This document shows positions 47-7,479 of a stretch of DNA of 8,091 nucleotides, one piece after another (position 1 is the stretch's first letter; the number at the start of each line of letters is the position of its first letter). The notes beneath the pieces were generated by a model. The model worked only from the letters and a program-made list of their open reading frames with translations, searched no databases and was not told the DNA's origin. Source of the DNA: Actinomycetota bacterium (GTDB taxonomy: Bacteria; Actinomycetota; Humimicrobiia; Humimicrobiales; Humimicrobiaceae). The stretch covers positions 1 to 8,091 of the forward strand of contig JALHTA010000319.1 of the NCBI GenBank assembly GCA_022865545.1, read 5' to 3'. Made by a program: the position numbers and the translations under genes.

Positions 47-84
47 ATAGTAATATTTAGTTCTAAACGTGTTCAATGTCCCCA
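47..84 (-). repeat. Repeat E1 (38-bp direct repeat, recombinase-tail-like)
   Basis: This 38-bp stretch is repeated exactly at 5136-5173 in the same orientation. A weaker similarity continues to its left, where both copies carry taattc and ataat blocks before the perfect part. Read on the minus strand it encodes LGTLNTFRTKYYY, which resembles the WLATVRNVRT and WLARVAKFRT peptides of the other repeats here. To the right of base 84 the two copies are unrelated, and this copy lacks the leading W. It is probably a relic of the same kind of 3' end or attachment sequence. Confidence 0.75.
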
Positions 85-149
85 GAGGATATGCACAGTT
101 CAAACCGTAAATTCACCTGCTTTAACTTTTATGGTATATTTTAATAAAT

Positions 150-258: not shown

Positions 259-801
259 GTGGAATCAGAAGAGAATTTAGTTAAAACTTGTATTGAAGCT
301 GGAGCATATAAAGCATTTGTAATCTCAACAGGTAAAATCCCTTTTGATGAAAGTTTTAGGAGTTATTGCGAGGCTAATTCTTGTGGAAATTATGGTAAAA
401 ATTATGCATGCCCACCCAATGTCGGTGGCAGTAAAGAATTAATTAAAAAAGCAAAAAGCTATAAAAAAGCACTGGTATTTCAAACAGTAACTCAAATTGA
501 GGACTCCTTTGATTTTGAGGGAATGAAAGAAGCGGCGCTTAAACATTCAAATATTGCAGATACAATTAATAAAGATATAAAAAAGCAATCTGATAATTAT
601 CTTCAACTAACAGCAGGTAAATGCTCAGTTTGTGAGGTTTGTGCTCTAATTGAAAATAAGCCCTGTAAATTTCCAGATAAAGCAATTTCATCTTTAGAGG
701 CATATTGCATGAATGTATCAATTTTAGCTGAGCTTTGTCATATGAAATATATTAATGGAAAAAATACTGTTACATATTTTGGGGCGTTTCTATTCAGTTA
801 A
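259..801 (+). CDS. DUF2284 family cysteine-rich metal-binding protein
   Basis: This 180-residue protein matches the DUF2284 family (predicted metal-binding proteins common in anaerobes and methanogens); the precise function is unknown. Visible hallmarks are C37-x4-C42-G-x-Y-G-K-x-Y-A-C51-P-P near the N-terminus. A second cluster follows: C122-x2-C125-x2-C128-x7-C136, then K-F-P-D-K-A-x-S-S-L-E-A-Y-C150. These cysteines probably bind an Fe-S cluster or zinc, and the protein has no membrane segment. The start is GTG, preceded by AAGGAG at 246-251 with a 7-base spacer, which is the best start available. A TTGATA box at 209-214 could be a -35 element, but no good -10 follows. The gene stands alone; its stop codon abuts repeat A, whose minus-strand reading frame ends at 798-800. 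The length fits the family, so it looks intact. Confidence 0.85.
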   Translation: MESEENLVKTCIEAGAYKAFVISTGKIPFDESFRSYCEANSCGNYGKNYACPPNVGGSKELIKKAKSYKKALVFQTVTQIEDSFDFEGMKEAALKHSNIADTINKDIKKQSDNYLQLTAGKCSVCEVCALIENKPCKFPDKAISSLEAYCMNVSILAELCHMKYINGKNTVTYFGAFLFS

Positions 802-878
802 AAACCCAATTCCGGTATAAAAATATCCCTATCTGAAGTCATTATTGCGGTTCTAACATTTCGTACAGTGGCCAGCCA
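798..878 (-). repeat. Repeat A (recombinase-tail repeat, class 1)
   Basis: The 39-base core (840-878) is nearly identical to 5723-5761 (B) and 7441-7479 (C), and similarity with C extends left to 798. On the minus strand it encodes WLATVRNVRTAIM, then TSDRDIFIPELGF and a stop at 798-800. Copy C encodes a near-identical tail despite base changes, which argues for coding origin. The right boundary is sharp: after ...GGCCAGCCA the flanks of all copies differ. The last bases overlap the stop of the DUF2284 gene on the other strand. Confidence 0.85.
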
Positions 879-1098: not shown

Positions 1099-1182
1099 AT
1101 GTTTGATGAACAGTTGAAAGAAGAAGTCGAGCTCAATAAACGGATACTGGAAAATTTAAGCAAAACTGATTATGAAAAATAA
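1099..1182 (+). CDS. 27-aa leader ORF overlapping the RhuM gene
   Basis: ATG at 1099 opens 27 codons, MFDEQLKEEVELNKRILENL then SKTDYEK, preceded by ATAAGGA at 1084-1090. Its stop lies inside the RhuM start (ATGAAAAATAA, an 11-base overlap), so the two are probably translationally coupled. An in-frame TGA at 1078-1080 shows that it does not extend further upstream. RhuM genes are often embedded in type I restriction-modification loci next to hsdM, and the charged helical sequence resembles the last residues of some HsdM proteins. It may therefore be a re-started scrap of such a gene. That link is inference from weak similarity; it could equally be a plain leader peptide. Confidence 0.4.
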   Translation: MFDEQLKEEVELNKRILENLSKTDYEK

Positions 1183-2200
1183 GAAAATTCCTGACAACCA
1201 GGTAGTTTTTTACCAGTCTCCCGATGGAGCTATCCATCTAGAAGTAATGTATGCAGAAGAAAACATTTGGCTCAATCAAAATACAATGGGAGAGCTTTTT
1301 GCTTGTAGTACTGATAATATTTCCTTGCACCTCAAAAATATTTATCAAAACAAAGAACTGGATCAAAATGCAACTTCCGAGGATTTCTCGGTAGTTCAAA
1401 AAGAAGGAAATAGGCAGATAAAGAGAAAAATAAAATTTTATAGCCTTGAGGCAATTATTGCAGTTGGCTACAGGGTCAATTCTGACAGAGGTAGGGAGTT
1501 TCGCATTTGGGCAACTCAGATTTTGAAAAACTATATTCACAAGGGATATGCTCTTGATAGCGACAGAATGAAATATGGTTCGCGATTCAGCACCCGTTAC
1601 TTTGACGAATTATATGAAGAGATTAAGGATATCCGTACTAGCGAGCGGATGATTTATCAAAAAATTACTGATATTTACGCTACTTCTTTTGATTACTCTC
1701 CAAATGCCCCAGAAACCAAAGAGTTTTTTGCAGCTGTGCAGAATAAGTTGCATTTTGCCATTACAGGCAGGACAGCGGCGGAGATTGTTGCACAAAGAGC
1801 TGATAGTAAAAAGGATAAAATTGGGCTTAAAACCTGGCGAAAATCTCCAAAAGGGAAAATCATGCCTAGTGATGTTGCAATTGCCAAAAATTATTTAGAT
1901 AAAGAAGAATTAAAGCATTTGGATCGTATCGGCAATATGTATCTTGATCATGCTGAAATGCAAGCAGCAAGAGGAAATGTAATGAAAATGAAAGATTGGC
2001 AGAAAAAACTAGATGCATTTTTGAAGTTTAGTGAATATGAGATTTTAACCAATGCAGGCAATGTCTCTCATGAAGTTGCTAAAGAATTAGCCTCAGGAGA
2101 ATATGCAAAATATAAGCCTATTCAGGATAAAAATTACATTTCTGATTTTGATCGGGAAGTAAAAAAGTTATCAGCTGATGATAATAAAAAAGATAAGTAA
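1172..2200 (+). CDS. rhuM: RhuM family protein (virulence/defence-associated)
   Basis: This 342-residue protein belongs to the RhuM family (COG3943), named from a Salmonella pathogenicity island and often found beside type I restriction-modification genes. Its biochemical role is not established. The N-terminal third carries the characteristic sequence: VVFYQSPDGAIHLEV, then a winged-helix-like block ENIWLNQNTMGELFACST with a helix-turn-helix. Next comes KFYSLEAIIAVGYRVNSDRGREFRIWAT around residues 87-115. This part resembles the DNA-binding KilA-N/ANT-like region of phage antirepressors. The C-terminal half is helical and Fic-like-adjacent in the family (TSFDYSP, FFAAVQNKLHFAITGRTAAEIV). The length is full for the family and the frame is unbroken. 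It is probably transcribed from the promoter at 1037-1065 and coupled to the 27-aa ORF. A HigA stub follows directly, suggesting that the region past the stop is a breakpoint. Confidence 0.88.
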   Translation: MKNKKIPDNQVVFYQSPDGAIHLEVMYAEENIWLNQNTMGELFACSTDNISLHLKNIYQNKELDQNATSEDFSVVQKEGNRQIKRKIKFYSLEAIIAVGYRVNSDRGREFRIWATQILKNYIHKGYALDSDRMKYGSRFSTRYFDELYEEIKDIRTSERMIYQKITDIYATSFDYSPNAPETKEFFAAVQNKLHFAITGRTAAEIVAQRADSKKDKIGLKTWRKSPKGKIMPSDVAIAKNYLDKEELKHLDRIGNMYLDHAEMQAARGNVMKMKDWQKKLDAFLKFSEYEILTNAGNVSHEVAKELASGEYAKYKPIQDKNYISDFDREVKKLSADDNKKDK

Positions 2201-2205
2201 AATAG

Positions 2206-2358
2206 CAACACAACAAAACAGCTGATACCGCTCTAAGATTATCCAAATACTTTGGTAACTCTGCATATTTCTGGATGGGTATACAGGATGAATTTGACCT
2301 GAGAGAAGAAGCTGAAAGAATTGAAGCTGAATTAAATAGAATTCTAAAAGCTATTTGA
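2206..2358 (+). pseudogene. higA: C-terminal fragment of HigA-type antitoxin
   Basis: The frame from 2206 to the TGA at 2356-2358 reads QHNKTADTALRLSKYFGNSA then YFWMGIQDEFDLREEAERIE, ending LNRILKAI. The block TADTALRLSKYFG-x-S-A-x-FWM-x-I-Q-x-x-x-DL is the hallmark of the C-terminal half of HigA (XRE-family addiction-module antidotes, normally about 90-110 residues). The helix-turn-helix N-terminal half and any higB toxin are missing, and an in-frame TAG at 2203-2205 closes the frame upstream. It is therefore a dead remnant of a toxin-antitoxin pair. The 8-base word CAGCTGAT occurs at 2172-2179 in the end of the RhuM gene and again at 2219-2226 here, which might mark a deletion junction. 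Confidence 0.8.
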
Positions 2359-2426
2359 AACCGGTAAGACTGGTAAATAATTAAGTTTGTAATATCTTAA
2401 TTAAATTGATTAATTCATTCAGTAAT

Positions 2427-2457
2427 TGGTTCGAAATTTCGCAACCCGGGCCAGCCA
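2427..2457 (-). repeat. Repeat D1 (31-bp perfect direct repeat, left of hicAB)
   Basis: This 31-base sequence is identical to 3045-3075. It contains the perfect palindrome CGAAATTTCG flanked by GGTT and CAACC, so it is almost fully symmetric, and a CCCGGG palindrome. On the minus strand it encodes WLARVAKFRT, followed here by NY and a stop. It ends two bases from the hicA stop codon. The plus-strand right end is the same CCAGCCA boundary as in repeats A, B and C. Confidence 0.92.
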
Positions 2458-2458
2458 A

Positions 2459-2683
2459 TCAAATTAAATTCTCTAATTCTTTTTTACCTATTCCAGCACT
2501 TTTTAAAATTGCCAAACAAGTACCAACAGGTAAATCCTTTTTATGAAATGGCACTACAACTCTTATTTTTGTTTCTGGTAAATAATAAATCTGATGGCTG
2601 CCTTTAGTTCTATCCAGAATAAACCCTCTGGATTTAAGTATTTTAATAATCTTTTCAGGAGTTAAAGATGGCAAATTAGACAT
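2459..2683 (-). CDS. hicA: HicA family toxin (type II toxin-antitoxin)
   Basis: This 74-residue protein is a HicA mRNA interferase, which cleaves mRNA through a small double-stranded-RNA-binding-like fold and is neutralised by HicB. The family signature is visible: a helix SLTPEKIIKILKSRGF, then DRTKGSHQIYY with the catalytic histidine at residue 30, then VVVPFHKKDLPVGT and a final helix LAILKSAGIGKKELENLI. Its length is normal for the family. The ATG overlaps the hicB stop (TAATG, one base shared), indicating a two-gene operon with the antitoxin first. The stop lies two bases from repeat D1. It appears intact. Confidence 0.93.
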   Translation of the reverse strand: MSNLPSLTPEKIIKILKSRGFILDRTKGSHQIYYLPETKIRVVVPFHKKDLPVGTCLAILKSAGIGKKELENLI

Positions 2684-2910
2684 TAGGTCTTAACTGATAA
2701 AGTATATTCTAATGTATCTTCTTCAGATGGAATCTCTTCATTATGGGCTCTTAAGCTTTCAATATATAATTCTATTGCCTCTTTTGCTTTTTCTATAGAG
2801 TCATCAACATTGTTACCATAGGTGATGCAACCAGGCAATGATGGAACAGTTACAGTGAAACCACCTTCCGGTTCTTTCTTTAAAAGTATTTTAAAATTTA
2901 ATATTTTCAT
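2683..2910 (-). CDS. hicB: HicB family antitoxin (type II toxin-antitoxin)
   Basis: This 75-residue protein is a short HicB antitoxin that binds and blocks HicA. It shows the usual partial RNase-H-like fold: FKILLKKEPEGGFTVTVPSLPGC, then TYGNNVDDSIEKAKEAIELYIESL, with the PSLPGC and EA-x-x-A-IELY motifs. It has no separate ribbon-helix-helix or helix-turn-helix domain, so autoregulation, if any, must work through another surface. The gene precedes hicA and is translationally coupled to it. Only a weak GAG lies upstream of the ATG, but a good promoter sits at 2944-2972. The operon and its promoter lie entirely between the D1 and D2 repeats, so this unit could move as a self-contained cassette. 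Confidence 0.92.
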   Translation of the reverse strand: MKILNFKILLKKEPEGGFTVTVPSLPGCITYGNNVDDSIEKAKEAIELYIESLRAHNEEIPSEEDTLEYTLSVKT

Positions 2911-2943
2911 ATTTTACTCGCTAGAAATTATAATTACATAGAC

Positions 2944-2972
2944 ATTATATTTTTAATTTGATAATAAGTAAA
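2944..2972 (-). promoter_or_regulatory. Promoter of hicBA
   Basis: Read on the minus strand, TTTACT (2967-2972) and a consensus TATAAT (2944-2949) are separated by 17 bases. The predicted start of transcription is near 2937, giving a leader of about 27 bases before the hicB ATG. The promoter is inside the segment bracketed by repeats D1 and D2. Confidence 0.6.
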
Positions 2973-3036
2973 TTAGTAAAAAAATCATAATACTTAAAGA
3001 TTTATAAGATTAAATCTCTTATTTTTATTATAGTAT

Positions 3037-3431
3037 TCACAAAATGGTTCGAAATTTCGCAACCCGGGCCAGCCAGTTAGAACGATAATCCAAATCTACC
3101 AGTACATCAAAGGGTTTTTTCAAGGTATACTCTAGCTTTTTACCCCTAAGTTGTAAGTTCGAAAGTAAAAATTAATAAGTTGCCTTTTTTGTTCTACTTT
3201 AGAACTGTTAAATAATTCTGGTGCCTTAGAACATATATTTAATAAGGAAATAAGCGTCATTGAGTAGTTTTCATCTGCTTCGGTTAAGCTTTTTAATTTA
3301 TTACTTAATTCATACTGTTTTTCTTTTAATTCTATTGCTTTTTCATCGTATTCATCCTGAGTAATTCCCCACCATTTCTCAACAATCTCTCTCCATAGAC
3401 ATTCAGGCTTTATGCTTCTTCTGGGATAATA
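3037..3431 (-). pseudogene. C-terminal remnant of a large serine recombinase
   Basis: The minus strand encodes the distal part of a resolvase/invertase-type recombinase of the large serine class (normally about 500 residues). One frame reads WREIVEKWWGITQDEYDEKA, then ELKEKQYELSNKLKSLTEAD and SSKVEQKRQLINF, the typical coiled-coil/linker region. The continuation LLSNLQLRGKKLEYTLKKPF, then DVLVDLDYRSNWLARVAKFR and a TGA at 3037-3039, lies one frame away. Adding one A to the A5 run at 3167-3171 restores a single frame, so the gene is frameshifted or the run is miscalled. The catalytic N-terminal domain is absent: an in-frame TAA lies just upstream, and a PD40 fragment begins at 3442. The last residues are encoded by repeat D2. 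It is non-functional as it stands. Confidence 0.75.
3045..3075 (-). repeat. Repeat D2 (31-bp perfect direct repeat, right of hicAB)
   Basis: It is identical to D1 at 2427-2457, with a period of 618 bases. Here it is continuous with the coding sequence of the recombinase remnant (NWLARVAKFRTIL then stop), so the repeat corresponds to the 3' end of that gene. The central CGAAATTTCG palindrome would suit a serine-recombinase crossover site. D1 and D2 together bracket hicAB and its promoter. Confidence 0.92.
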
Positions 3432-4637: not shown

Positions 4638-4925
4638 CTAATCCTGTTGAGTGGTGACCTCCTCAATTAAACTGGTACCTACAGATATCTTGTCAAGACT
4701 ATGTATGGCGGCGCCATTTGTCTTGATTATTTCTTCTACCTTCTCATAATCTATAGAATCACCTTCACAGGTGATTTTTATATTCTCAACTTTATTGTCC
4801 ATTTCAATAAGTGACACATCCACTCCATCAACTCCATCCAGATCGGCAAGCTGTTTTGCTATATCCAGCATGTTGGGTGAATGTGGTTTTGAAACATCGA
4901 GTACCAGTCTTCTTATATTTGCCAA
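4638..4925 (-). CDS. DUF211 domain protein (TTG start)
   Basis: The product matches DUF211 (PF02680, COG1888), a small ferredoxin-like-fold family best known from archaea, of unknown function. It starts LANIRRLVLDVSKPHSPNML, continues DIAKQLADLDGVDGVDVSLI and KVENIKITCEGDSIDYEKVE, and ends with IHSLDKISVGTSLIEEV. The longer ATG reading at 4983-4985 would add 20 residues not seen in the family. I therefore choose TTG at 4923-4925, which gives 95 residues, the family's usual length, and has AGGAGA seven bases upstream. The motif IRR-LVLDVLKPH in other members matches well here. The gene appears intact and monocistronic. Confidence 0.85.
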   Translation of the reverse strand: MANIRRLVLDVSKPHSPNMLDIAKQLADLDGVDGVDVSLIEMDNKVENIKITCEGDSIDYEKVEEIIKTNGAAIHSLDKISVGTSLIEEVTTQQD

Positions 4926-4932
4926 TTTATTT

Positions 4933-4938
4933 TCTCCT
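4933..4938 (-). promoter_or_regulatory. Ribosome binding site fixing the DUF211 start
   Basis: Minus-strand AGGAGA lies seven bases before the TTG at 4923-4925. It supports the short form over the ATG start 60 bases further upstream, which lies before this site. Confidence 0.7.
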
Positions 4939-5075
4939 ATCGTGTTAATGTTGTTAATAATATCAGTGACAAAACTTATAGCCAATGATCGTCATGATCT
5001 TTTATCTTAATGAAAAACTTAATTAATACCTTGATACATTAAGTATATCTTATATGTCTTCAAAATATAAGCAAA

Positions 5076-5213
5076 TTAAGCTGTTTTAAGTTCAATATTT
5101 AATATTTCGATCTGTGAAGATAATTCAATAATTTTATAGTAATATTTAGTTCTAAACGTGTTCAATGTCCCCAACCACTTAAGACAACTACGTAGTGTAT
5201 TTCTTAAGAGCAT
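5076..5213 (-). pseudogene. Short ORF ending in a recombinase-tail peptide (45 aa)
   Basis: The minus-strand frame from an ATG at 5211-5213 reads MLLRNTLRSCLKWLGTLNTF then RTKYYYKIIELSSQIEILNI and ends ELKTA. The WLGTLNTFRT block corresponds to WLARVAKFRT at the end of the serine-recombinase remnant and to WLATVRNVRT in repeats A, B and C. It is therefore likely the detached 3' end of another recombinase gene. No catalytic domain is present. The ATG may be fortuitous. Confidence 0.4.
5136..5173 (-). repeat. Repeat E2 (38-bp direct repeat of E1)
   Basis: It is identical to 47-84 over 38 bases, in the same orientation and 5,089 bases apart, with weaker similarity to the left. Unlike E1, its reading frame keeps the leading tryptophan (WLGTLNTFRT). 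E1 precedes repeat A, and E2 precedes repeat B, each pair enclosing one cargo gene. Confidence 0.85.
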
Positions 5214-5284: not shown

Positions 5285-5720
5285 ATATATAATCTACTTA
5301 GGAGTAACTTATGAAGAAAATATAGAGTTTACCTTAGATGATAATGTAAGCTTACTTACTACAGAGAAGGTCAAGGTAGTACTTAATGATAGCAGTGATA
5401 CATATACCCTTAGTGCTACTGCTAACAATTCAGAAGGCAGCACTTCAGCTTCCATTAATCTCTCTTGGGGATGTGAAGAAGATGTAGTCGGCAAAGAGGA
5501 TATGGAAGAGACCGAAGAAGTGACTACCGAAGATGAAGAGGAGACTGCTGAGGATCAAGAGGTAGTTGAAGAACAGGATAATCAAGGCGAAGTACTGGAA
5601 GGAGATCCTCTCCCTCCAGATCTATCAATCTTTATCTATGAAGGTCTCATATATTCAACTTCAGATGATGTTTGCTACTAACGTATAGCATCTGAACTAT
5701 ACGGTAATCCCTCATTTGAA
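5285..5720 (+). pseudogene. Relic of an Ig-like repeat protein related to the 480-aa gene
   Basis: An open frame without a usable start reads EENIEFTLDDNVSLLTTEKV, then SDTYTLSATANNSEGSTSAS and INLSWGC. An acidic linker rich in E, D and T (about 45 residues) follows, then PPDLSIFIYEGLIYSTSDDV and CY. These correspond to the end of one Ig-like domain, a linker and the start of the next, as in the intact protein at 5923-7365 (FTLEATATNSQGTASDS; CYYRVKAYITGNP). A TAA at 5679-5681 replaces the second tyrosine codon of CYYR, after which the frame continues as RIASELYGNPS. The sequence is then cut by repeat B. An ATG after AGGAG at 5311 opens only four codons. Both ends of the original gene are lost. 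Confidence 0.75.
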
Positions 5721-5761
5721 GCCATTATTGCGGTTCTAACATTGCGTACAGTTGCCAGCCA
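5717..5761 (-). repeat. Repeat B (recombinase-tail repeat, class 1)
   Basis: The 39-base core 5723-5761 matches repeats A and C with one or two changes, including a G-to-T in the GGCCAGCCA end. On the minus strand it encodes WLATVRNVRTAIM, then runs out into the Ig-like relic (ASNEGLPYSS). Similarity with A and C is shorter on this side than between A and C themselves. It truncates the Ig-like relic. Confidence 0.85.
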
Positions 5762-5922: not shown

Positions 5923-7365
5923 ATGTTATGTAAATTCTGTGGTGCTAAAAATCCCGATGATTCCCTGTTCTGTAAAAAATGCGGTAAAAGTCTGGAAAAA
6001 AAAGCAACTGAAGTTAAAGCTCTGAACAAAATAACTCCTCAAAAAGATAAACCCGGAAGCAAGCTACCTTTAATACTGGGAATAACCATACCCCTTGGTA
6101 TCATAATAATAGCAATAATACTTGTATTTACTGGTATTATCCCACTGCTTAACCAAAATGAACCAGTAGCTGATGCTGGAGAAGATATAAATACATCAGT
6201 TGGAGAGGTAATAATATTGAATGGCAGTGGTTCCTATGATTCAGATGGAGACAATTTAATATATTTATGGGAGGTAGATGATAGAAACTACGAGGGAGAG
6301 ACCATAGAGATGATTATTGAAAAGCAAGGTGTCTATACTGCAAAACTACTAGTACAAGATTCCCGTTATTCCAGTACCGACTCAGTAATAATAACTGTAA
6401 ATCGCAAAAATAATACTGAGAACCAGGTACAAGAAGATACTGAAATAATTGAATGGGAATATGAAGAGCTTAAATCAATACCATGGAGTGAAGCTAAGGA
6501 TTATATAGGAGAAACAGTAATGGTATATGGTCCTGTTGTTGCCACTTATTATGATAAAGAAATTGATGGAGGAACAACATTTTTGAATATTGGTAAGGAT
6601 TACCCAGATCCAGAAGGATTCTCTGCATGGATCCCTGGCCCATATAGATCAAAATTTTCCCAGGCGCCAGAAATATATTATTCTGTAAAAAGTATTTCTG
6701 TTACAGGTTTAATAGTAGAGGTTGATGGTATTCCACATATGAAAGTTACGGATCCAAGCCAGATAAGTATTGTTGAAGAAGTTGAAGAGGTAGCGGAGGA
6801 ACCAAAATCAGAACCTGACATAGAACCTATCACCGAAGAGGAGCAGGAAGAAGAACCAGCTGAAGGGGTGCTATCAGCTCCAACTGTCAGGTTAGAAATA
6901 ATTGAAGGTCCTTCATTTTCACAACTCGGTGATAATACCTGTTACTACAGAGTAAAAGCGTATATTACTGGTAATCCTACTCCAACAATATCTTTTAATA
7001 AGGATGATAGCATGGGTTCATTAGGAGGAGGTATCTCACAGGTAAACCTGCATAATAAAGGCGAATCTTTTACATTGGAAGCTACTGCCACTAACTCTCA
7101 GGGTACTGCCTCTGATTCAATAACCTTGATACATACCTGTCAGGACCATATTCCGATTCTGGTCAAAAATGATACTGGCGGAACCCTGACCCTGAGTATA
7201 AGTGGGCCAGGTAATTATAACTTCAGTATTCCTCCTGGACAGCAAAATATATATGTAATCCCTGGTACTTATAATTATACAGCTAAGGGTTGCGGAGGTG
7301 CAGTATTGTCTGGAACATATGATCTATCCAAATCTGGGGATGAATGGGATTTCTGGTGTCAGTGA
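5923..7365 (+). CDS. Membrane-anchored zinc-ribbon/PKD/Ig-like protein
   Basis: This 480-residue protein begins with a zinc ribbon (C3-x2-C6 and C17-x2-C20, of the MxCxxCGA...FCxxCG type) and a basic linker. One hydrophobic membrane span follows at about residues 48-76. The outside part starts with a PKD-like domain at about 80-160 (AGEDINTSVGEVIILNGSGS, then YDSDGDNLIYLWEVDD). It continues with an OB-fold-like region at about 175-283 (IGETVMVYGPVV; SVTGLIVEVDGIPH) and an acidic Glu/Pro linker. It ends with an Ig-like domain at about 315-405 and a beta-rich C-terminal domain containing several cysteines. AGGAGG at 5911-5916, six bases before ATG, fixes the start. It is probably a cell-surface sensor or adhesion protein with a cytoplasmic zinc ribbon, but its ligand is unknown. 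A related relic precedes it, and repeats B and C flank it. Confidence 0.75.
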   Translation: MLCKFCGAKNPDDSLFCKKCGKSLEKKATEVKALNKITPQKDKPGSKLPLILGITIPLGIIIIAIILVFTGIIPLLNQNEPVADAGEDINTSVGEVIILNGSGSYDSDGDNLIYLWEVDDRNYEGETIEMIIEKQGVYTAKLLVQDSRYSSTDSVIITVNRKNNTENQVQEDTEIIEWEYEELKSIPWSEAKDYIGETVMVYGPVVATYYDKEIDGGTTFLNIGKDYPDPEGFSAWIPGPYRSKFSQAPEIYYSVKSISVTGLIVEVDGIPHMKVTDPSQISIVEEVEEVAEEPKSEPDIEPITEEEQEEEPAEGVLSAPTVRLEIIEGPSFSQLGDNTCYYRVKAYITGNPTPTISFNKDDSMGSLGGGISQVNLHNKGESFTLEATATNSQGTASDSITLIHTCQDHIPILVKNDTGGTLTLSISGPGNYNFSIPPGQQNIYVIPGTYNYTAKGCGGAVLSGTYDLSKSGDEWDFWCQ

Positions 7366-7401: not shown

Positions 7402-7479
7402 TTAAATTAATTCAGGTATAAAAATATCCTCACCTGCGGTCATTATCGCGGTTCTAACATTGCGTACAGTGGCCAGCCA
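7402..7479 (-). repeat. Repeat C (recombinase-tail repeat, class 1)
   Basis: The core 7441-7479 matches repeat A, and similarity continues left to the stop codon at 7402-7404. The minus-strand frame reads WLATVRNVRTAIMTAGEDIF then IPELI and stops. It keeps the frame and the D-I-F-I-P-E-L end of copy A although bases differ, which supports coding origin. The right end is again ...GGCCAGCCA, with unrelated sequence beyond. Confidence 0.88.

Follow-up and report, generated by a model that had tools for sequence, protein, structure and literature searches.

Organization of the locus

The DNA stretch analysed here (the window) is 8,091 nucleotides long and represents the entire contig C222 of genome G000, from an actinomycetotal bacterium of the family Humimicrobiaceae. 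It carries seven copies of a short sequence, termed tails, which belong to three sequence families (D, R and WLGT) and have a single shared orientation. Complete tail copies encode a ten-codon W...RT peptide on the minus strand. The first tail (59–88, plus strand) is a degenerate member of the WLGT family, whose likeness to the copy at 5148 spans positions 21–84 and ends after CCCCA. A gene for a DUF2284 protein (259–801, plus strand), assigned by a Pfam-type domain score, is the cargo upstream of an R-family tail that extends over 71 nt (808–878, plus strand; 30-nt core 849–878). The minus strand of this tail is WLATVRNVRTAIMTSDRDIFIPEL, and over the 71 nt its peptide resembles the native C-termini of two homologues of a large serine recombinase (LSR), P0037 (...DIFIPELNL) and P0075 (...DIFIPKLSL). 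The next cargo gene encodes a RhuM-family protein (1172–2200, plus strand; domain score) and is followed by the 3' remnant of a higA antitoxin gene (2221–2358, plus strand), which was recognised by eye and has no score; the names rpoD, ddl, catalase and higA' were all assigned by eye. This remnant resembles the higBA segment of another locus (L013), which likewise precedes a D-family tail.

A D-family tail, D1 (2427–2457, plus strand; WLARVAKFRT on the minus strand), forms the left boundary of a segment containing the toxin gene hicA (2459–2683, minus strand) and the antitoxin gene hicB (2683–2910, minus strand), which overlap by one base at 2683. Both were assigned by domain score (PF07927, HicA_toxin, 3e-20; PF15919, HicB_lk_antitox, 7.2e-13), and the presence of the two domains in one operon identifies a HicAB toxin-antitoxin system. 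On the other side lies D2 (3045–3075, plus strand), identical to D1 over 31 nt, as stated in a preliminary description of this DNA. D2 is joined at CAGCCA to a C-terminal LSR remnant (3076–3422, minus strand), which runs in two frames and matches residues 392–493 of the homologue P0047. An open stretch of 44 codons at the end of this remnant shares its reading frame with D2, which represents the end of the broken gene, again as described earlier; the longer piece of the remnant (3135–3422) is in a different frame. Beyond it are a gene for a DUF211 protein (4638–4985, minus strand; domain score), a WLGT-family tail (5110–5177, plus strand; 30-nt core 5148–5177) whose minus strand reads WLGTLNTFRT... 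and which is followed by CTTAAGACAACTACGTAG, and an R-family tail (5691–5761, plus strand; core 5732–5761). A further cargo gene, for a zinc-ribbon/PKD protein (5923–7365, plus strand; domain score), precedes the last R-family tail (7409–7479, plus strand; core 7450–7479). The possibility that the tails are parts of tRNAs was rejected, as ARAGORN finds no tRNA in the window. They were also rejected as a known RNA, the sole Rfam match in the window being at chance level and elsewhere than the tails.

The repeats bracketing hicAB

A single base (2458), instead of the two previously given, separates D1 from the hicA stop codon (2459–2461), and D1 abuts hicA without the right-arm motif that follows tails in relatives (see below). 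The preliminary description had proposed a complete operon with its own promoter. Both genes are confirmed, while the promoter is unsupported: six promoter-like sites are found in 2380–3100, compared to 4.0 (sd 1.9) in shuffled sequences. It had also regarded a palindrome within the repeat, CGAAATTTCG, as a feature of a recombination site. The palindrome is present in both copies (2432–2441 and 3050–3059), yet it is not conserved in a second tail family, so the site does not generally include it. Crossover at the palindrome was rejected for the same reason; the switch in sequence occurs instead at CAGCCA, where the repeat ends.

The D1/D2 identity could also have arisen if tails exchanged sequence with one another, through gene conversion or homologous recombination, in which case it would be uninformative on the mobility of hicAB. 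Identical tails do recur in the genome, and the D1/D2 sequence is also present on contig C350. The identity ends with the 31-nt unit, however, and the flanks of D1 and D2 diverge beyond it, which makes this explanation very improbable in our assessment.

Tails in related genomes

A 30-nt D pattern, allowing up to two mismatches, finds a match in 15 of the 296 genomes searched in the phylum. These all belong to the window's family, of which 24 genomes were sampled; the 272 others have none, and the reversed pattern, used as a control, has no match in the phylum genomes. The R pattern was run on 35 genomes of the family, compared to 24 for the D pattern, and matches 21; a D or R tail is present in 27 of the 35. 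The family is known from draft genomes. Tails were counted at 147 places, of which 145 were listed and used for the orientation count. Their orientation is concordant on all 30 contigs with at least two listed tails, and neighbouring pairs agree in 55 of 55 cases. In 40 sequences examined closely, all 94 neighbouring pairs are co-oriented, with a median spacing of 957 nt, although these sequences were picked for holding tails with the listed orientations already visible, so that the list-based 55 of 55 is the unselected count. One shuffle of each of the 40 sequences contained no tail.

The two tail consensuses start with GGTTCGAAA and GGTTCTAAC. A motif like TTMRGACATATATGTC or YTTMRGACATRTRTGTC follows 31 of 134 tails, including a copy in the window at 5178–5195, and is absent from a control stretch; the right flanks of the other 103 tails have no shared motif. 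The YTTMRGACATRTRTGTC-like motif is near-palindromic in its second half and could possibly be the other arm of a site.

Segments and cargo

Intervals between neighbouring tails were analysed for gene content, using 78 of 94 after those outside 200–4000 nt were dropped and counting ATG-started ORFs of at least 70 residues. One ORF is found in 48 intervals, two in 20, three or four in 6 and none in 4. The cargo genes run with the tails in 67 cases and against them in 42, which argues against a transcription element. The Pfam assignments among 109 cargo proteins, as covered by tallies of 25 of 155 Pfam families and 25 of 101 PADLOC families, include HigB-like toxin (4), HicA (3), radical SAM (3), PemK/MazF (2), Fic (2), aldo/keto reductase (2) and FMN reductase (2). 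A catalase-like cargo ORF was recognised by eye. The cargo types higBA and hicAB recur as tail-associated units in several genomes.

Near-full matches to hicAB, with 76–79% DNA identity, occur in three relatives (G023, G024 and G033). In G023, which belongs to another genus, hicAB lies between two identical R-family tails (a 35-nt identical run) followed by LSR sequence, a layout equivalent to that of the window but built from another pair of tails. R tails flank hicAB to the left and right in G024; in G033, the flanks are an R tail and, opposite it, a diverged site resembling a tail. Neither of these two hicAB pairs is directly followed by an LSR. The search for tails covered these three and four partial matches (L081–L084), the latter without a tail by a broad pattern; shorter matches were left out.

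The preliminary description favoured a single event, in which a hicAB circle was inserted into, or excised around, a site in the end of this recombinase gene. The identity of D1 and D2 over 31 nt, and the reading frame that D2 shares with the end of the remnant, are what such an event would leave. Against this stand the five additional tails of the window, the 30 of 30 concordant contigs and the bracketing of hicAB by another tail pair in G023, which together call for a general system. We therefore regard a single event as very improbable: there are dozens of segments in arrays of uniform orientation, and hicAB is one of them.

A different possibility is that the tail is an ordinary interspersed repeat, such as a MITE, a REP or an element of 3'-UTRs, which some recombinase genes captured as their coding end and which has no role in recombination. 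Many tails are indeed solitary, without a recombinase. In the 43 intervals where the last gene is co-directional with the tail, the tail begins 19–300 nt past the stop codon, as might be expected of such an element, and the lack of a shared motif in 103 of 134 right flanks points the same way. However, the orientation of tails is fixed on each contig though genes run both ways, R tails match native LSR C-termini well past 30 nt, and the junctions switch at CAGCCA, with LSR ends found also on tRNA genes (see below). An interspersed repeat is thus a very unlikely explanation.

The recombinase and its two C-terminal classes

Of the LSR, no more than the C-terminal part is present in the window. 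The full-length homologue P0047 contains the Resolvase N-terminal, Recombinase and zinc-ribbon domains (PF00239, PF07508 and PF13408), and a profile of 45 homologues matches the TP901-1 and A118 integrases in the PDB. The homologues differ in their C-termini: the native class ends in WL..VD.FRT..., and the other main class ends in codons that read as antisense tRNA (e.g. WLGREDSN). Among the 120 homologues listed, 110 could be parsed, into 41 antisense-tRNA-like, 17 native-like, 44 short and 8 other C-termini; a coarser rule applied to 206 homologues gave 58 tRNA-like, 13 native-like, 110 short, 20 other and 5 unparsed. The numbers in each class therefore vary with the rule applied. Seventeen pairs of homologues with bodies 75–84% identical fall into different tail classes. 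Because such similar bodies end either in the native tail or in antisense-tRNA-like codons, the last codons of the recombinase are not fixed. Homologues that do not end in the sequence of the remnant, which had been expected to count against a site at this position, do therefore exist, yet tail exchange accounts for them.

The predicted structure of P0037 has a mean pLDDT of 81.6 and a pTM of 0.45. Block means of pLDDT are 79–89 over residues 451–480 and fall to 54, 55, 45 and 35 from residue 481; the tail begins at residue 490. Given this low pLDDT from residue 481, exchange of the C-terminal tail looks tolerable in the model.

Our search of G000 found only remnants of this LSR group. The only full-length LSR of the group in the family is in G009 (54% identical), where the match reads past one TAG; an LSR in G003 (61% identical) runs off its contig. 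More distant LSR genes, 26–32% identical, are present in six relatives (G012, G013, G018, G023, G026 and G029), and it could be these, instead of this group, that act on the tails.

The prevalence of remnants among the family's LSRs of this group also bears on an explanation by decay, in which ordinary LSR islands were inserted successively at tRNA ends and then lost DNA by deletion; the segments would be scars that were never mobile by themselves. Truncation, as in the higA end and the 59–88 tail, would be a natural product of this process, and a comparable scenario has been published for CIMEs (PMC5704250; PMC3146451). Against it, the segments are compact, with one ORF in 48 of 78 intervals, and cargo of the same type (higBA and hicAB) is found repeatedly, in several genomes, as a unit accompanied by tails. 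On balance, decay seems unlikely to us, though it deserves serious weight.

Junctions with tRNA genes

The best match to the window's remnant within the family is in another genus (L016), where a tRNA-like 3' end lies to the left of CAGCCA. The two sequences are identical at 312 of 346 aligned positions overall; at the D2 junction, they agree at 40 of 40 positions to the right of CAGCCA, and at 12 of 40 to the left. In relatives, an LSR gene or remnant can abut a tRNA gene or end within it, and its last codons are then antisense tRNA. ARAGORN identified a tRNA at the LSR junction in four of ten family loci, tRNA-Gln in L019, L021 and L023 and tRNA-Asn in L020, whose LSR is a 493-residue open frame; no tRNA was found at the junction of the other six loci scanned. 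In one locus (L018, contig C87 of G023), the LSR end with its tRNA-like tail is tandemly repeated at 1680–2200, in at least three units of ~160 nt, and an ARAGORN tRNA-Gln is located further on, at 2272–2346. Outside the phylum, the three full-length homologues scanned in Patescibacteria (L093–L095) all have a tRNA-Asn or tRNA-Lys at the LSR junction; a fourth LSR locus (L096, 24% identical) was left out. No convincing native tail was found at the far end of L093–L095 within the 10 kb searched. Nor was an element found that is complete in the sense of having an intact LSR next to a tRNA on one end and the native tail of that LSR on the opposite end.

Rows of tails also start at tRNA sequences. 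Four begin at a complete tRNA, which is tRNA-Gln in L061, L134 and L135 and tRNA-Asn in L066. Five others begin at a 25-nt tRNA-Gln-like 3' end, ~11–57 nt downstream of a different complete tRNA (Leu in L013, Arg in L060 and L067, Cys in L069 and Met in L071). In L057, L062 and L064, the row starts at a tRNA-Gln-like end and no tRNA was found; L064 has a tail upstream of this anchor as well. The 11 tRNA-Gln-like anchors thus comprise three in complete tRNA-Gln, five fragments and three without a tRNA.

Comparison of related genomes indicates turnover at such sites. G006 and G007 have a common flank of 1.4 kb (79% identical), which ends just past a tRNA-Arg(cct) and is followed by different segments. 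The first segment gene has no Pfam match in one of the two genomes and encodes a Fic protein in the other, and the similarity resumes for only 72 nt, around the next tail. A tRNA-Asn behind an rpoD-like gene was listed at 28 loci, 22 of them readable after the CCA. Within genus g5, each of the three species has a different sequence right after the CCA of this tRNA-Asn, and one has the intact LSR there. G009 and G028 have a common LSR junction at the site, and G006, G011 and G013 have another common flank. The latter flank occurs once per genome in 5 of 35 genomes, adjoining tRNA-Asn sequence in four and a tail in one. That one is G000, where an R tail on contig C478 (1940–1990; L129) is joined to the flank that adjoins tRNA-Asn sequence in the other four. 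This join is consistent with a predicted right junction. The case is weakened by the ORFs behind the flank: two genomes have a Y2_Tnp ORF there, and a third has a different LSR.

A proposed model for the arrays

We consider it probable, at roughly 70%, that hicAB belongs to a row of small segments divided by same-orientation copies of an LSR 3' end, which are predicted attachment sites joining segments to tRNA 3' ends and to each other. This reading retains two ideas of the preliminary description, both of which our comparisons support: that the repeats are putative copies of a serine-recombinase attachment site, and that this site straddles the 3' end of the recombinase gene itself.

The attachment site would span the 3' end of the LSR gene, with exchange near CAGCCA, which corresponds to a tRNA 3' end with its CCA encoded there. 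In the proposed attP, the 30-nt tail would form the left arm, CAGCCA the edge and the start of the LSR body the right arm; in segments without a recombinase, the right arm may sometimes be a TTMRGACATATATGTC-like motif. Integration at a tRNA would swap the native last codons of the LSR for antisense-tRNA codons at the left junction, and the right junction would keep the stranded native tail, facing the old downstream DNA. Later insertions could then use the stranded tails as their sites, again in the same orientation, leading to tandem accumulation. A recombinase provided in trans would move those segments that lack one of their own (hicAB, higBA, Fic and others). In this scheme, the hicAB segment would have D1 and D2 as its two junctions, and the remnant to the right of D2 would be a leftover of a neighbouring recombinase. 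Large serine recombinases normally tell attB from attP, and repeated use of the tails would need a relaxed rule. The model does not explain the five fragment anchors or the three anchors without a tRNA.

Comparison with known systems

Integrons contain single-gene cassettes with sites in fixed orientation, and toxin-antitoxin cargo is common; they use the tyrosine recombinase IntI and a folded attC with a GTTRRRY core. The arrays resemble them in their rows of single-gene segments, fixed orientation and toxin-antitoxin cargo. In contrast, the tails contain no GTTRRRY core, and the enzyme joined to them is a large serine recombinase. A tentative and somewhat doubtful extension of our reading is that the arrays are an integron-like system, in which the LSR's own terminal codons would be the cassette site, single-gene cassettes would be shuffled in orientation-locked, tRNA-anchored arrays, and each integration would swap the C-terminus of the enzyme, a possible built-in activity switch. 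If true, cassette arrays would have evolved at least twice in bacteria, by unrelated enzymes, and there would be a bacterial serine-recombinase example of an integrase protein sequence that changes with the insertion site. The tails also offer a simple DNA signature with which draft genomes can be screened for arrays and for the toxin-antitoxin pairs, Fic genes and metabolic genes that they carry.

Several components are already known: tandem accretion by serine recombinases downstream of an RNA gene (PMC3146451; PMC5704250) and archaeal integrases that carry their own site (PMC8371274). The combination of these with one-gene segments, whose repeated site would be the tail of the recombinase itself, was not found in the literature searched, within the terms used. 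In the archaeal suicidal (SSV-type) integrases (PMC8371274), the attachment site is inside the recombinase gene and translated, as predicted here; these are tyrosine enzymes and are split in two by integration. Here, the domains are those of a bacterial serine recombinase and only the tail differs between LSR classes, so that the predicted change is a swap of the C-terminal tail, modelled with low confidence.

CIME/IME accretion involves integrase-less elements that retain their ends and stack in tandem (PMC5704250), features that the arrays may share. The hicAB segment itself has tail copies, as putative att sites, on both sides and no recombinase between them. The IMEs of serine recombinases are described in the same review (PMC5704250) as having very short flanking repeats and disrupting genes, whereas the repeats here are ~30 nt and tRNA 3' ends are used. 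Tycheposons carry tRNA-anchored cargo, like the arrays, and their enzyme is a tyrosine recombinase; in tRNA-repeat additive islands, the recurring repeats are copies of tRNA ends, in contrast to the copies of LSR tails found here (PMC10872708).

The genomic islands at ssrA in Dehalococcoides are similar in their serine recombinase, their tandem arrangement downstream of an RNA gene with direct repeats of the same site, and the existence of islands without an integration module. Of those islands, 15 lack the module and 16 have it, as six genes, and the ssrA 3' end is copied in their 20-bp repeats (PMC3146451). They differ from the arrays, whose repeats match the recombinase's native 3' end, whose targets seen are tRNAs and whose segments mostly contain one or two genes. 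The repeats here are not ssrA 3' ends: the tails match LSR C-termini, and the anchors are tRNA-Gln, tRNA-Asn and tRNA-like ends. As a separate observation, a tmRNA gene on contig C72 of G025 (2089–2441; L141) is located ~470 nt from an oppositely oriented tail.
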